DNA of 45,212 nt from Candidatus Bipolaricaulota bacterium (GTDB lineage Bacteria; Bipolaricaulota; Bipolaricaulia; RBG-16-55-9; DRXL01). The stretch spans positions 1 to 45,212 of the forward strand of contig JAUQPG010000011.1 in assembly GCA_030550495.1 (NCBI GenBank), read 5' to 3'. The notes beneath the pieces are model-generated. The model was not told where the DNA came from, ran no database searches, and saw only the letters and a list, made by a program, of their open reading frames with translations. The first letter of the stretch is position 1. Each line of letters opens with the position of its first letter. The translations under genes and the position numbers were made by a program. Of the stretch, positions 13,862-31,770 are shown one piece after another.

Positions 13862-13987
13862 GGCCCTCACCCTGCCCTTAGGGCACCCCGAGACGTTTTG
13901 GTGCAGCATCTGTTTGAGAAAGCGGTCGCACCAAAACGTCTCGCCCTCTCCCGCCCAGACGGGAGAGGGGCTGGGAAGTGAGGGCCT
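13862..13987. repeat. Composite palindromic element between binding protein and permease
   Basis: Outer arms GGCCCTCAC (13862-13870) and GTGAGGGCC (13979-13987) enclose a perfect 16-base inverted repeat, CGAGACGTTTTGGTGC at 13889-13904 and its complement at 13928-13943, plus a third stem CCCTCTCCCG/CGGGAGAGGG at 13944-13953/13960-13969. It fills almost all of the 148-base gap between the system 2 binding protein and its permease. The outer and CCCTCTCCC parts match repeats at 25524 and 25902. It may act as an mRNA-stabilising or attenuating structure. Confidence 0.85.
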
Positions 13988-21306: not shown

Positions 21307-21340
21307 AGGCCCTCATCCCCGCTTGGTAAGATGAGGGCCT
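21307..21340. repeat. Hairpin at binding protein/permease junction
   Basis: AGGCCCTCATC (21307-21317) and GATGAGGGCCT (21330-21340) form a perfect 11-base-pair stem with a 12-base loop. The arm nearest the permease lies 4-14 bases upstream of its start codon, where a ribosome site would be. No U-tract follows on either strand. It resembles the outer arms of the elements at 13862, 25524 and 25902. Confidence 0.85.
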
Positions 21341-24665: not shown

Positions 24666-26702
24666 CTAGCGTAGATAAAGCTCTAGGCTGTTTTTCTGTG
24701 AGTCCCACAGGACCCCGACGCGCACCAATGCGTCGGGGAAGAGCTCAAGCTCTGCGCCGAGTTGCCCATCGTTCTGGGCGAAGACGCGCGCGCGTAGATG
24801 CTCGCTCAGCTCCGTCATCACGCCCACACGCCAGCCAAGACTGTTCCCCCAAAGGCGTTGCCCTGTGCGCGTCTGCGTCACTGCCCACAGAGAGAGCTCC
24901 AGCCAATTCTGAGAAGCTCTCCAACTCCCATGCCAGCCCAGCCCAATCTGATGGGAGATAAGCTCTTCTTCATCGCGCTGATAGAAGAGCGATAGGCTCT
25001 GGCGCGTGCTTAAGCTTGTGATGAGAGGCAGCGTCGCGGTTACGGACTGATGAGCGCTGGGGCCATCGCGCGCGATGAGGGCTTCGAGGGACGCTAAGAG
25101 CACGCGGTTCTCGTAGCGCACCGAGTATGAGGGCAGCAGCGTCTTCCAATTGAAGCCGAAGAGCACACTATAGAGATGCTGGCGCAACGCGTCGCTGCCA
25201 AACGTTAGTAGCCTGATGCTGTTTGAGCCTAAGATGGGCACGAGGATCTTTGGCTCCAGCGACGGGCGCGGGTCGTAAGGCGTGATGGGGTAGTCTGTGT
25301 CGGGAAAGCCATCCCAAGGCGGGAAGGGCTCCGGCTCGAGCTGCACAGGCTTCCAGCTACTGGGATCAGAACTTTCTGTGACTTCAAAGAATGAGCCGTC
25401 GGCGAGTCTGTATGCATAGGGCTTCAAGCCCCCATCGCGATCGGAGCTGAAGAGCACGAAGTGCCCATCAGAAGAGAATGTCGGGGCGAGGTCGACGGCG
25501 CGGTCGCGAGTGATTTGGGCAAAGGCCCTCACCCCTAGCCCCTCTCCTGTAGCCGGGGTGAGGGCCATAAGATAGATATCTTGGAACCCACCGCGGCGCC
25601 AGATCGAGAGAGCGAGTTGCTCGCCGTCGGGCGAGATCGCGAACGAATCTATAAAATAATCGTGCAAGGGGAACTCTTTGAGCGTCTCTAGCTGTTTTGT
25701 CTTGAGATCAAAGATTGCTAAGACCGGCCCCAGGTCGCCCCAGCGATGGCGAGCTAGTAAGACTTTTTGCCCGTCGGGGAAGAGCGCGGCTCGATAGATT
25801 CGTGCACCCTCCGTCAGACGAATCTCGCGTCGCGTCCTCGGATCGTAGAGATAGAGATCGCCGAAGAGATATGAGTGTTTGAAGATATCGTGCTTGATGA
25901 GGACCCTCACCCCTAGCCCCTCTCCCGTCGGTGCTGACGGGAGAGGGGAGCCATCAAGCGGGGTGAGGGCCTCGTACTCAGCAGCGAGCTGCGTAAACGA
26001 TGTGCCCGTCAGACGCCGAAAGATTCGATTGTAGTCGCTCCACAGCCCAAGCGATACCGTCGCGCGCAGGTCATTGGCTTGCAGTCGATGCCATTCCTTC
26101 AAAAAATCTGGACCGAAACGCTCCGCGAGATAGCGCACGAATCTATGTTCTCCTCCGATGCCAAGGCGCATGTCGGGCGGCGTGCTCAGGGCTTCTTCAG
26201 CAAGATACTCCCCGATCCCAGCGAGCAGCTCTGAAGATTTGAGATTGGGCAGAATGAGCTTGCCTAAGAGCGGACGCAGCGCCTCTGAAACACCGAAGAC
26301 AAAGTCCGCGCTCGCTAACTGCGCATAGAGCACAAAGACACTCTGCTGCACCCAGCTGGGGAACCTGGGATTAAAGTGCTCGGCGAGATCGGCTTGCGCG
26401 ACGCAGATCGTGATTCTGTCCTGAAAGACATCGAGCTCGCGATAGACAGTATCCGTAGCGTCGCAGAGCACGATGTCCACCGTGGCCTGAGGGGCATACC
26501 CCAACTGGCTATATACGAAGCGATACGCATCTTCCGCAGCGACGGCCGCTTCCTGAGCTAGTCCCTCTAGCCCCGCGGGGAACGTCACGCGGAAGTGCTC
26601 AGTATGGACGGTGTGCCAAGCTAAGCTTGGTTCGCCCAGTCTTTGGGCATGTCCTAGCCACGGCCACCAGACCAATACTATTACTATCGCGAAAGAGCGC
26701 AT
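24666..26702 (-). CDS. Exported pseudo-peptidase with TolB-like propeller
   Basis: Exported protein of 678 residues with a signal peptide (about 1-20), a peptidase-MA-like domain (about 25-250), a PD40/TolB-like propeller (SPDGEQLALS, FSSDGHFVLFSSDRDGG) and a shortened C-terminal beta-strand region. Aligned with the 29017-31770 relative, the zinc ligands of HELVH are replaced (Val124 and Gln128 for the two histidines, Leu125 for the catalytic Glu) and the distal Glu is Ala161, so it should not be an active protease. Two palindromic repeats lie in frame and add the peptide PTGEGLGVR or ATGEGLGVR. The role is unknown; a scaffold or regulator of the active relative is one idea. Confidence 0.8.
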   Translation of the reverse strand: MRSFAIVIVLVWWPWLGHAQRLGEPSLAWHTVHTEHFRVTFPAGLEGLAQEAAVAAEDAYRFVYSQLGYAPQATVDIVLCDATDTVYRELDVFQDRITICVAQADLAEHFNPRFPSWVQQSVFVLYAQLASADFVFGVSEALRPLLGKLILPNLKSSELLAGIGEYLAEEALSTPPDMRLGIGGEHRFVRYLAERFGPDFLKEWHRLQANDLRATVSLGLWSDYNRIFRRLTGTSFTQLAAEYEALTPLDGSPLPSAPTGEGLGVRVLIKHDIFKHSYLFGDLYLYDPRTRREIRLTEGARIYRAALFPDGQKVLLARHRWGDLGPVLAIFDLKTKQLETLKEFPLHDYFIDSFAISPDGEQLALSIWRRGGFQDIYLMALTPATGEGLGVRAFAQITRDRAVDLAPTFSSDGHFVLFSSDRDGGLKPYAYRLADGSFFEVTESSDPSSWKPVQLEPEPFPPWDGFPDTDYPITPYDPRPSLEPKILVPILGSNSIRLLTFGSDALRQHLYSVLFGFNWKTLLPSYSVRYENRVLLASLEALIARDGPSAHQSVTATLPLITSLSTRQSLSLFYQRDEEELISHQIGLGWHGSWRASQNWLELSLWAVTQTRTGQRLWGNSLGWRVGVMTELSEHLRARVFAQNDGQLGAELELFPDALVRVGVLWDSQKNSLELYLR
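25524..25566. repeat. Palindromic repeat inside a coding region (copy 1)
   Basis: Perfect 12-base arms GGCCCTCACCCC (25524-25535) and GGGGTGAGGGCC (25555-25566) around TAGCCCCTCTCCTGTAGCC. It is translated on the minus strand as part of ALTPATGEGLGVRAFA. The relative encoded at 29017-31770 lacks it at the matching loop. Confidence 0.9.
25902..25971. repeat. Palindromic repeat inside a coding region (copy 2)
   Basis: Outer arms GACCCTCACCCC (25902-25913) and GGGGTGAGGGCC (25960-25971), one mismatch, enclose a perfect 13-base stem CCCCTCTCCCGTC/GACGGGAGAGGGG (25917-25929/25936-25948). It is translated in frame as SPLPSAPTGEGLGVRV at the junction of the peptidase-like domain and the propeller. 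Confidence 0.9.
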
Positions 26703-29016: not shown

Positions 29017-31770
29017 TCACATTCCCGCAGTCAGATAGAAGCTTGGGGTGGGCTCACCCAGCCCCTGCGCGATTCCCACTCGCAACGCCCAATTCACGAA
29101 ATACCCCGTTGTCAGAGATACACTGATCTCGGCTCCAAAGCCGACCTTCAGATTAGCTATATCGAGCGTCTCCCCAGCAAGGCCAGCTTCGACAAAGACC
29201 CCGCCGCGCACGTCATCGAAGAAGACGGGCCAATAGCCCAGTGCACGCTCAATCGTCGCTAATGGGAATCTATATTCAAGCGAAGCAATGAGCGCTTGCT
29301 TGCCTTGCTGGACTTTTTCGGCAAAGCCCCGCAGCGCAAACTCTCCCATGTGCCCGCCAAGCGAAAAGCCGTCTTCGGGTTTCTCCGCGTCGCTCCACCC
29401 GCCGACAAACTTTACGCCTAGCGTGTGCGTCTCAACGAGCGGGAGCCGAAAGACTTCGCTGAGCGTCACCGTCAGCCGACGATACAGCTTAGCATCGCTA
29501 GGGCTTTTAAGCTCGCCCTTTACAGAGACTGAGAGCGTATCGCGCCACAGATCATCCCCGTGTACGCTTTGATAACTGTACTGCGCTGCGTAAGTATCTT
29601 CCGTCCAGGGGGCGGGATGGTCTGGCTCTTTCGCTGGACGATCCGAATGGCTGTAGCTGGCCCTCAGCCATTGCTGCTGAAAGATGCTTAGCGTCAACGG
29701 CATCACAGCGCTGATCTTTTGGGTGCGCCCGTCGCGCGTGTCACTCACTGAAAGCGAGAGCACGGGCAGGAAGTGCGCGAGCATATAGTCAACGCTATAG
29801 AACGGCTTGCCCTGCTCGAAGTCCCAGCCCGCTATGAGCTGATACGCCTGCTTGCCCAAGACGTCTTGCCCGAAGGTGACGATCCCGACGGACTTGCCAT
29901 CGCTGAAAGGGAGCCAGAGCTTGGGCAAGAGCGACGGGATCATATCGTAGGGCTTGATAGAGAAGTTCGTCTTCTGGAAGCCGGACCATTGGGGAAGCGT
30001 CTCTTTTTGAATGCTGACGGGCTTCCAGCTTTGCGGATCAAAAGACATGAGATAGATATCGTAGCCGTCGCTGCCGTAGCTTGTAAACGCGATCTGTGTG
30101 CTGTCAGGCGAGACGGCGGGATCGAACGCGCCCGTGAGCACATTCGTCACTTTATAGAATGAGCCGTCGCTGAGCTTATACGCATAGAGATTGGCGACAC
30201 GATAGTCGTCCCTATCAGAGCTGAAGAGCAGATACTGCCCATCGGGCGAGAAGCTGGGGTCTAAATCTTCGTCTTTGTCCTGGGTGATGGGCGTAAGCTC
30301 GCCGCTCTCGATATCTAACAGATAGATATCTTGATATCCGCCGCGCCGCCAGAGCGACAGAGCTAAGATTTTGCTGTCGGGCGAGACAGCAAGCGAGTGC
30401 ACGGTGACGCTGTTGTCAGCAAATTCTTTGACGGGCGTGATCTTTCCGGATTGTAAATCGAGCTTTGAGATAGCAGTACTTGCGTCGCGTCCGATGTGAT
30501 GCGCAAAGTAGATCGTCTGGCCATCGGGAGCAAAGACAGCGACATAGGCCCGCGCGCCGTGGGTGAGACGTCGCTCGCTCTTCTTCTCTAGATCGTAGAG
30601 ATATATGTCGCTGAAAGCGTAATAGAATCCGTGAAAATCGAGCTTGGTGTAGAGTACGGAGCGCCCATCGGGCGAGAAAGACGGCAGCTCTGCTGGACCG
30701 AAGAGGATCTCGCGATCGTTCTCGCCGTCAGCGTTGATCATTCTGAGTCCAATGCGTCCTGGCCTGCGGTGCTGGTAGACAATCTCTTTTCCGTCGGGCG
30801 ACCATGAGGGCTGCATACTCAGCCAGCCGAGTCTTGTTAAGCGTAGGCTTGCTGTGAGGCCCTCGCGGGTGATCGCTTCGATTTCTGAAGAGAATTTCTG
30901 GCGTAGCCAGCCACGAAAGCCCGCGTAAACTTCATCAGCGGACTTGCCCAAAGCTCTCTTCAAGATCGTGTCAAAGTTGTCACCGAAGAAGACAAGAGAG
31001 AGCGCATTGACCAAGCTCCCAGAGTTGAAGTCATTGAATTTCTTCATGCTCTCTGGGCCATAGGTCTCTTCGATGTAGCGAAGGAACCACGAGCTGAAGT
31101 TATAGACGAGCAGGCCCACCGGCGGCCACGCCACGCGATTATAATAGCGCGAGATCTCATCGAATCTGGGAATCTTATTGTCTAAGACCATCTGGCGGAC
31201 CATCATGATCGTATTAGCGTCATTGAGGCGTGACTCGCCCAAGTGCTTATATTTTTCGTAGACGGCTAAGCCCTCAATGAACGTGATGGGCTTGTTCATA
31301 TTGGGCAGAACGATTCTTCCGAAGATCGCGCGCAGCAACGCGTTGACCCCCGTAGCAATGTCCAGGTCCAAGATGTGTACAAGCTCGTGATAGACAAGCA
31401 TCTTAAGCCAGCTCTCTAAGCGCACGTTGGCCCAATCGGCCAGGCGCATCTGCGCCGGGCCGATATAAATAGTGTTCTGCGGGACGGGTGTCGCTGATCC
31501 AACGATCTCGTCAATAAAGTCAACGATGACGATATAAATCTTCTCAGCAGGAGCTTTGCCAAACTCTTTTTGAATGATTTCGTAAGACTCTTCGGCGACG
31601 GTCGCGGTCTCGTGGGCGATGTTCTCTAGACCCTGATGGAAGACGATAATAAAGTGCGGCGTCTCCAGCTGATGCCACACAAGCGCCGGGTCGAAGATCG
31701 TGATCTGGGCATAGCTCACAAGAGAGCTGCATGCTCCGAGAAGCGTTAGAATCAGAAAGCGACGCATCAT
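29017..31770 (-). CDS. Exported peptidase-MA-like protein with TolB-like propeller and outer-membrane barrel
   Basis: A 917-residue exported protein. After a signal peptide (about 1-21) comes a gluzincin-type peptidase-MA-like domain with HELVH at 128-132 and the third ligand Glu166 in FIEGLAVYEKY. A TolB-like propeller follows (about 310-600), with many SPDG motifs and FSSDRDDY. The C-terminal ~290 residues alternate like an outer-membrane BamA/surface-antigen barrel (SLEYRFPLATIER, GGVFVEAGLAG). It could cleave proteins at the outer membrane, perhaps with the propeller selecting substrates. ATG 31770 follows AAAGGAGG. It is second in an operon after the barrel protein at 31792-32799, with a 21-base gap. 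Confidence 0.85.
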   Translation of the reverse strand: MMRRFLILTLLGACSSLVSYAQITIFDPALVWHQLETPHFIIVFHQGLENIAHETATVAEESYEIIQKEFGKAPAEKIYIVIVDFIDEIVGSATPVPQNTIYIGPAQMRLADWANVRLESWLKMLVYHELVHILDLDIATGVNALLRAIFGRIVLPNMNKPITFIEGLAVYEKYKHLGESRLNDANTIMMVRQMVLDNKIPRFDEISRYYNRVAWPPVGLLVYNFSSWFLRYIEETYGPESMKKFNDFNSGSLVNALSLVFFGDNFDTILKRALGKSADEVYAGFRGWLRQKFSSEIEAITREGLTASLRLTRLGWLSMQPSWSPDGKEIVYQHRRPGRIGLRMINADGENDREILFGPAELPSFSPDGRSVLYTKLDFHGFYYAFSDIYLYDLEKKSERRLTHGARAYVAVFAPDGQTIYFAHHIGRDASTAISKLDLQSGKITPVKEFADNSVTVHSLAVSPDSKILALSLWRRGGYQDIYLLDIESGELTPITQDKDEDLDPSFSPDGQYLLFSSDRDDYRVANLYAYKLSDGSFYKVTNVLTGAFDPAVSPDSTQIAFTSYGSDGYDIYLMSFDPQSWKPVSIQKETLPQWSGFQKTNFSIKPYDMIPSLLPKLWLPFSDGKSVGIVTFGQDVLGKQAYQLIAGWDFEQGKPFYSVDYMLAHFLPVLSLSVSDTRDGRTQKISAVMPLTLSIFQQQWLRASYSHSDRPAKEPDHPAPWTEDTYAAQYSYQSVHGDDLWRDTLSVSVKGELKSPSDAKLYRRLTVTLSEVFRLPLVETHTLGVKFVGGWSDAEKPEDGFSLGGHMGEFALRGFAEKVQQGKQALIASLEYRFPLATIERALGYWPVFFDDVRGGVFVEAGLAGETLDIANLKVGFGAEISVSLTTGYFVNWALRVGIAQGLGEPTPSFYLTAGM

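Follow-up and report, generated by a model that had tools for sequence, protein, structure and literature searches.

Palindromic repeats lie in frame within conserved enzyme genes of a Candidatus Bipolaricaulota genome

The propeller gene and its two palindromes

The window analysed here is a stretch of 45,212 nucleotides, contig C51 of a Candidatus Bipolaricaulota draft genome (G000, 1.63 Mb, 92% complete). On its reverse strand, a gene at 24666..26702 encodes a PD40-type propeller protein of 678 residues and contains two palindromic elements of family A. The shortened element at site 2 (25524..25566, 43 bp) has the arms GGCCCTCACCCC and GGGGTGAGGGCC at 25524-25535 and 25555-25566, and encodes ALTPATGEGLGVRA in a propeller loop. 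The element at site 1 (25902..25971, 70 bp) forms nested hairpins and encodes ALTPLDGSPLPSAPTGEGLGVRV; its arms are at 25902-25913 and 25960-25971, the left one with a single mismatch (GACCCTCACCCC). Both palindromes are GC-rich and open in the frame of the host gene. The original prediction, made from the window alone, had described two palindromes with common arms in this gene, both encoding TGEGLGVR, and this was borne out by translation and by an arm search, in which six matches with at most one mismatch were found in the window against 0.21 expected, a number that none of 100 shuffles reached. Two of the other features lie between genes. One is an element copy at 13862..13986, inside which a further inverted repeat, different in sequence (GAGACGTTTTGGTGC ... 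GCACCAAAACGTCTC, 15 bp), is nested. The other is a lone imperfect arm, GGCCCTCATCCC, on the forward strand at 21308..21319, which is probably a remnant.

The host gene has orthologues in all five congeners and in two species of a sister genus, and its named relatives are Candidatus Bipolaricaulota/Acetothermia metagenome assemblies. Outside the source genome, a palindrome or a remnant of family A, B or C is present at site 2 in seven of the seven readable orthologues. The AlphaFold model of the host protein is poor overall (pLDDT 49, pTM 0.36) and only its propeller part is usable (about 66-86). There, two strands are joined by a loop of low confidence in which site 2 lies; the model gives no usable placement for site 1. 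A third in-frame insertion site, with a peptide resembling that of family C, was seen near FFEVDLSPGPSPTRGGE in the host gene of G002 and G003 (the orthologues at L040 and L041).

The window also contains an element-free paralogue on the reverse strand (29017..31770), a PD40 propeller protein of 917 residues with a YHELVH motif. The original prediction took this gene as a view of the state without insertion. It is 8 residues shorter at one site, as had been said, but with 35% identity to the host gene in the alignment it is an old paralogue and not the pre-insertion state. The ancestral state of site 2 is not readable from it, and all readable true orthologues have a palindrome or remnant there. 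Better empty sites come from orthologues of other genes. The YHELVH motif of the paralogue resembles that of zinc peptidases, and the product of the host gene has LYAQLASAD at the matching position; judged by these residues, the host gene appears to be a copy without catalytic activity.

Dispersal, anatomy and reading frames

A genome-wide search for the 12-base arm, proposed with the original prediction, returned 38 exact matches in the source genome against one for the reversed control. In all, 41 element clusters were found, which is a lower bound because the count was made on A/B-type motifs in stretches fetched around the matches. Twenty-one of the 41 interrupt 18 long coding genes without breaking the frame, and a few more are at gene ends. 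One of the elements seen at a gene end (3041-3108 of L090) gives an endonuclease III-like gene a new C-terminal tail after its 4Fe-4S motif, stop codon included. The A/B core pattern is common in two genera (6 to 121 matches) and rare elsewhere in the phylum (0-7). A plasmid search with the element yielded weak partial matches alone, in Azospirillum, Cupriavidus, Sulfitobacter and cyanobacteria.

The elements are modular, and we assigned family letters by simple patterns and inspection. Family A reads GGCCCTCACCCC-linker-CCCCTCTCCCGT-loop-ACGGGAGAGGGG-linker-GGGGTGAGGGCC; on one side the linker is often long and forms a hairpin of its own. Family B reads CCCTCACCCC..CCCCTCTCCC-loop-GGGAGAGGGG..GGGGTGAGGG. 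The relatives also have families C (CCTCTCCCC..GGCCCCTCCCC..) and D (CCAGGCTTCGCCTGG..). Modules of D are sometimes nested in A, as in RecG and MPE of G005 and, in the source genome, in TilS. As in MITEs, terminal inverted repeats are present, as outer arms of 10-12 bp; by eye, no clear target-site duplication was found between filled and empty sites. No parent transposon or mobilising enzyme was found, PF01797 being the one family searched for. This is the REP-type Y1 transposase (TnpA-REP) that the original prediction suggested looking for, and among the source genome and eight other genomes of genera g1 and g3 it is missing from G000, G001, G003-G005 and G007-G009 and is represented by a fragment in G002. 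It is present in the element-poor G006, G010, G011 and G020.

Pfam assigned most of the host genes to known families. These include RecG, PriA, MutL, TilS, TIM, NFACT, a P-type ATPase (copper-type) and an ABC ATPase, as well as S9 and S8 peptidases, an FtsJ-type (TlyA-like) protein, a phosphodiesterase (PDE), Glu_synthase and GXGXG proteins, a PKD protein, a NosD-ABC fusion and a metallophosphatase. The Pfam models of TIM and NFACT_N span the insert.

All three frames are used for the 5' arm (5, 12 and 4 copies), and the 3' arm is read in its two stop-free frames alone, as GVR 13 times and as GEG 8 times. The remaining frame of GGGGTGAGGG, with the first base at codon position 3, contains a TGA stop and is used by none of the copies. 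Different frames give unrelated peptides (ALTP.., PHP.., PSP..), with the reading ALTP...GVRA the commonest. As the 5' arm occurs in every frame, the encoded peptide would be a by-product and not an object of selection. TGEGLGVR conserved without the nucleotide palindrome, which the original prediction named as evidence against insertion, is not what the orthologues contain: the peptide varies, and palindromes of changing sequence persist.

A chimera at 2761-3611 of L096 (contig C38 of G000) has its junction inside an element. One part shares 260 identical bp with contig C10, at the 3' end of the ABC ATPase gene region, and the other is a truncated copy of the propeller gene of the window, 81% identical. 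It reflects either element-mediated recombination or an assembly join.

Occupied, empty and exchanged sites in orthologues

We searched the flanks of 18 insertion sites in ten relatives and compared the orthologous stretches as protein and as DNA. All genomes compared are draft metagenome assemblies. Assembly error was considered as a source of the inserts and rejected, as the same positions recur in separate assemblies. Clean empty orthologous sites were found for the S9 peptidase, TlyA, the phosphodiesterase, the PKD protein, TIM and PriA. In the S9 peptidase, G000 and G005 have the insert, and six other species lack it and share one and the same short turn. Of the species read, G000 alone carries the TlyA, PDE and PKD inserts; G004 may retain a PKD remnant. 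In G010, a relative at the level of the order, none of the sites read holds a palindromic insert. These empty sites in orthologues of other genes lend strong support to in-frame insertion in the manner of Rickettsia, as the original prediction had proposed for the window. In filled segments the inverted repeats are mostly 10-16 bp long and the folding z-scores mostly strongly negative; most empty segments show neither.

The family at one position differs among species. The TIM site is occupied by B in G000, G005 and, in a shorter form, G007, by D in G003, and is empty in G001, G006, G008 and G010. At the MPE site, A, A+D, B and D are found in different species, and at the TilS site A, A+D and C. 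The TIM and MPE genes of G003 have a pure D element in which no A/B remnant is visible. Remnants of a single arm are seen in PriA of G003 (GGGGTGAGGGCC) and in MPE of G007, and loss cannot always be told from non-insertion, as at the G003 PriA site with its remnant. Near-identical copies occupy RecG in G000/G004, and TilS and site 2 in G007/G009; these are clearly vertical, and part of the sharing at PriA, RecG and TilS is plausibly vertical as well. Of 93 orthologous sites 34 are occupied, compared with 2 clusters in the other 121,383 coding bases of the same frames; the count starts from sites known in G000, and vertically shared copies are part of it. A concatenated-protein species tree calls for at least 30 state changes across 13 sites, with the unresolved G000/G005 fork entered as a pair, eroded sites left out and pattern letters corrected by inspection. 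These changes suggest that permissive positions have at least partly been colonised or exchanged more than once.

Within sites, some changes keep the palindrome. Between G000 and G004, a stem pair of the RecG element changed from C-G to T-A on both sides, altering two residues and keeping the base pairing. The elements of one site fit better when inverted between species in PriA (G007/G009), MutL (G001/G007) and S8 (G000/G005); in the S8 case the linkers are swapped and the orientation of the central loop is unchanged. Inversion between the arms preserves the length and therefore the frame. Such changes point to DNA-level processes (inversion, template switching, conversion), rather than the peptide, as what maintains the palindrome. 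The RecG change and the inverted fits are single cases, however, for which independent insertions could also be the source.

Known repeats, origin and persistence

The best-known in-frame palindromes are those of Rickettsia and Wolbachia. The Rickettsia palindromic elements (RPEs) are short dispersed palindromes that lie in frame at solvent-exposed positions of genes that are conserved in other respects. Orthologues have been reported with different RPE groups at one site or close to it, and whether this reflects a hotspot or a common origin was left open (PMC3767692). The Bipolaricaulota repeat is similarly in frame in several unrelated conserved genes (21 copies, 18 genes) and absent from orthologues outside the lineage (the sites read in G010). 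It differs from RPEs in being very GC-rich and in another phylum, and in that comparison of congeners at one and the same position reveals clean empty sites and differences in family. The likeness is one of behaviour and we do not claim common descent. REPs tagged with GTAG or CGTC are small hairpins that are sometimes inside replication and repair genes; different REPs lie at about the same site in recB of two Xanthomonas species, and intragenic REPs occur in O. terrae, Thauera and others (PMC3733652). In contrast, the Bipolaricaulota copies begin with GGCCCTCACC or CCCTCACCCC, have no terminal GTAG/CGTC tag on inspection, and their element-rich genomes lack a RAYT-type transposase, save a fragment. 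The triplex motif (TM) repeats, described from over 260 bacterial genomes, have the order CCCTCTCCC-loop-GGGAGAGGG then GGGGTGAGGG, which the B core fits, but in E. coli they are always intergenic (Holder 2015, PMC4666352), whereas 21 of the 41 Bipolaricaulota clusters are intragenic. Family A also differs from TM in its nested outer arms and GGCC ends. A loose form of the TM pattern, the CCCTCTCCC hairpin with the GGGTGAGGG third strand, fits 15 of the 41 clusters, six of them on both strands, and does not fit the others.

This partial fit bears on the possibility that the elements are functional RNA or DNA structures, such as mRNA hairpins or triplexes affecting expression or pausing, that are under selection inside genes. 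The motif forms triplexes in vitro (PMC4666352) and some stem changes are compensatory. We nevertheless regard such a function as unlikely, since presence varies among close species in the same gene, empty orthologues are common and no Rfam family matched the sampled elements. Selection for the peptide as a protein module, for example a functional linker, is scarcely credible. TGEGLGVR does recur at both sites of the propeller gene and ALTP...GVRA is the commonest reading, but the frames give unrelated peptides, orthologues have other peptides or none at the same position, and the RecG stem change swaps two residues yet keeps pairing; peptide-level selection is thus largely refuted. The palindrome-restoring double changes and the apparent in-place inversions would also fit local birth by template switching at existing quasi-palindromes that are not mobile. 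This origin is very unlikely because the same modular sequence of 60-70 bp, arms and linkers included, is dispersed genome-wide and in a second genus.

A closer question is how often each site was filled. One ancestral insertion per widely shared site may have preceded the split of the two genera, followed by divergence, nesting, inversion and erosion with no new insertion, and we give this somewhat less than an even chance. The near-identical vertical copies (RecG of G000/G004; TilS and site 2 of G007/G009), the single-arm remnants in PriA of G003 and MPE of G007, and the nesting of D in A at RecG and MPE of G005 and TilS of G000 all agree with it. On the other side, the S9, PDE, PKD and TlyA inserts are limited to G000 or to G000 and G005, with short empty sites elsewhere, indicating that insertion continued within the genus, and the pure D elements in TIM and MPE of G003 retain no visible trace of A or B. 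A further reading, in which fixed permissive points in essential proteins are repeatedly refilled by different families through in-place, frame-keeping conversion, inversion or targeted insertion, is somewhat less likely than not. The data favour a mixture of refilled sites and sites filled once and then remodelled.

The most likely explanation is that mobile palindromes have spread and that in-frame genic copies are tolerated and translated, a reading to which we give a probability of about 0.85. The repeats are dispersed non-coding palindromes of about 40-125 bp, whose nested hairpins are modular and fall into at least four families, related or mosaic. They would have spread through the source genome and its close relatives by machinery acting in trans, entering genes as well as spacers, and purifying selection on frame, stop codons and fold would filter the intragenic copies. 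Those copies would persist only where the net gain in length is divisible by three, the stop frame is avoided and the loop or linker is tolerant, and would then simply be translated. Judging from the gene sequences, both the translation of the inserts and their tolerance by the host proteins appear probable.

Our literature search found no paper on palindromes in Bipolaricaulota. The kind of element is known already; as far as the literature searched shows, what is new is its lineage, its reach into core enzymes, and the empty and swapped states that can be seen. In Rickettsia and Wolbachia, the age of the inserts leaves a hotspot and one old insertion undecided at shared sites. Here, close species present occupied, empty, eroded and family-swapped states of one site, in such constrained enzymes as TIM and PriA, and the hotspot question therefore becomes directly testable. 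The inserts also amount to many natural insertion-tolerance experiments in well-studied enzymes, in an independent phylum.

Several empty sites (PKD and TIM in relatives) have a small CTCTC..GAGA-like palindrome, which may reflect a preferred target or a footprint of excision, or may be there by chance.
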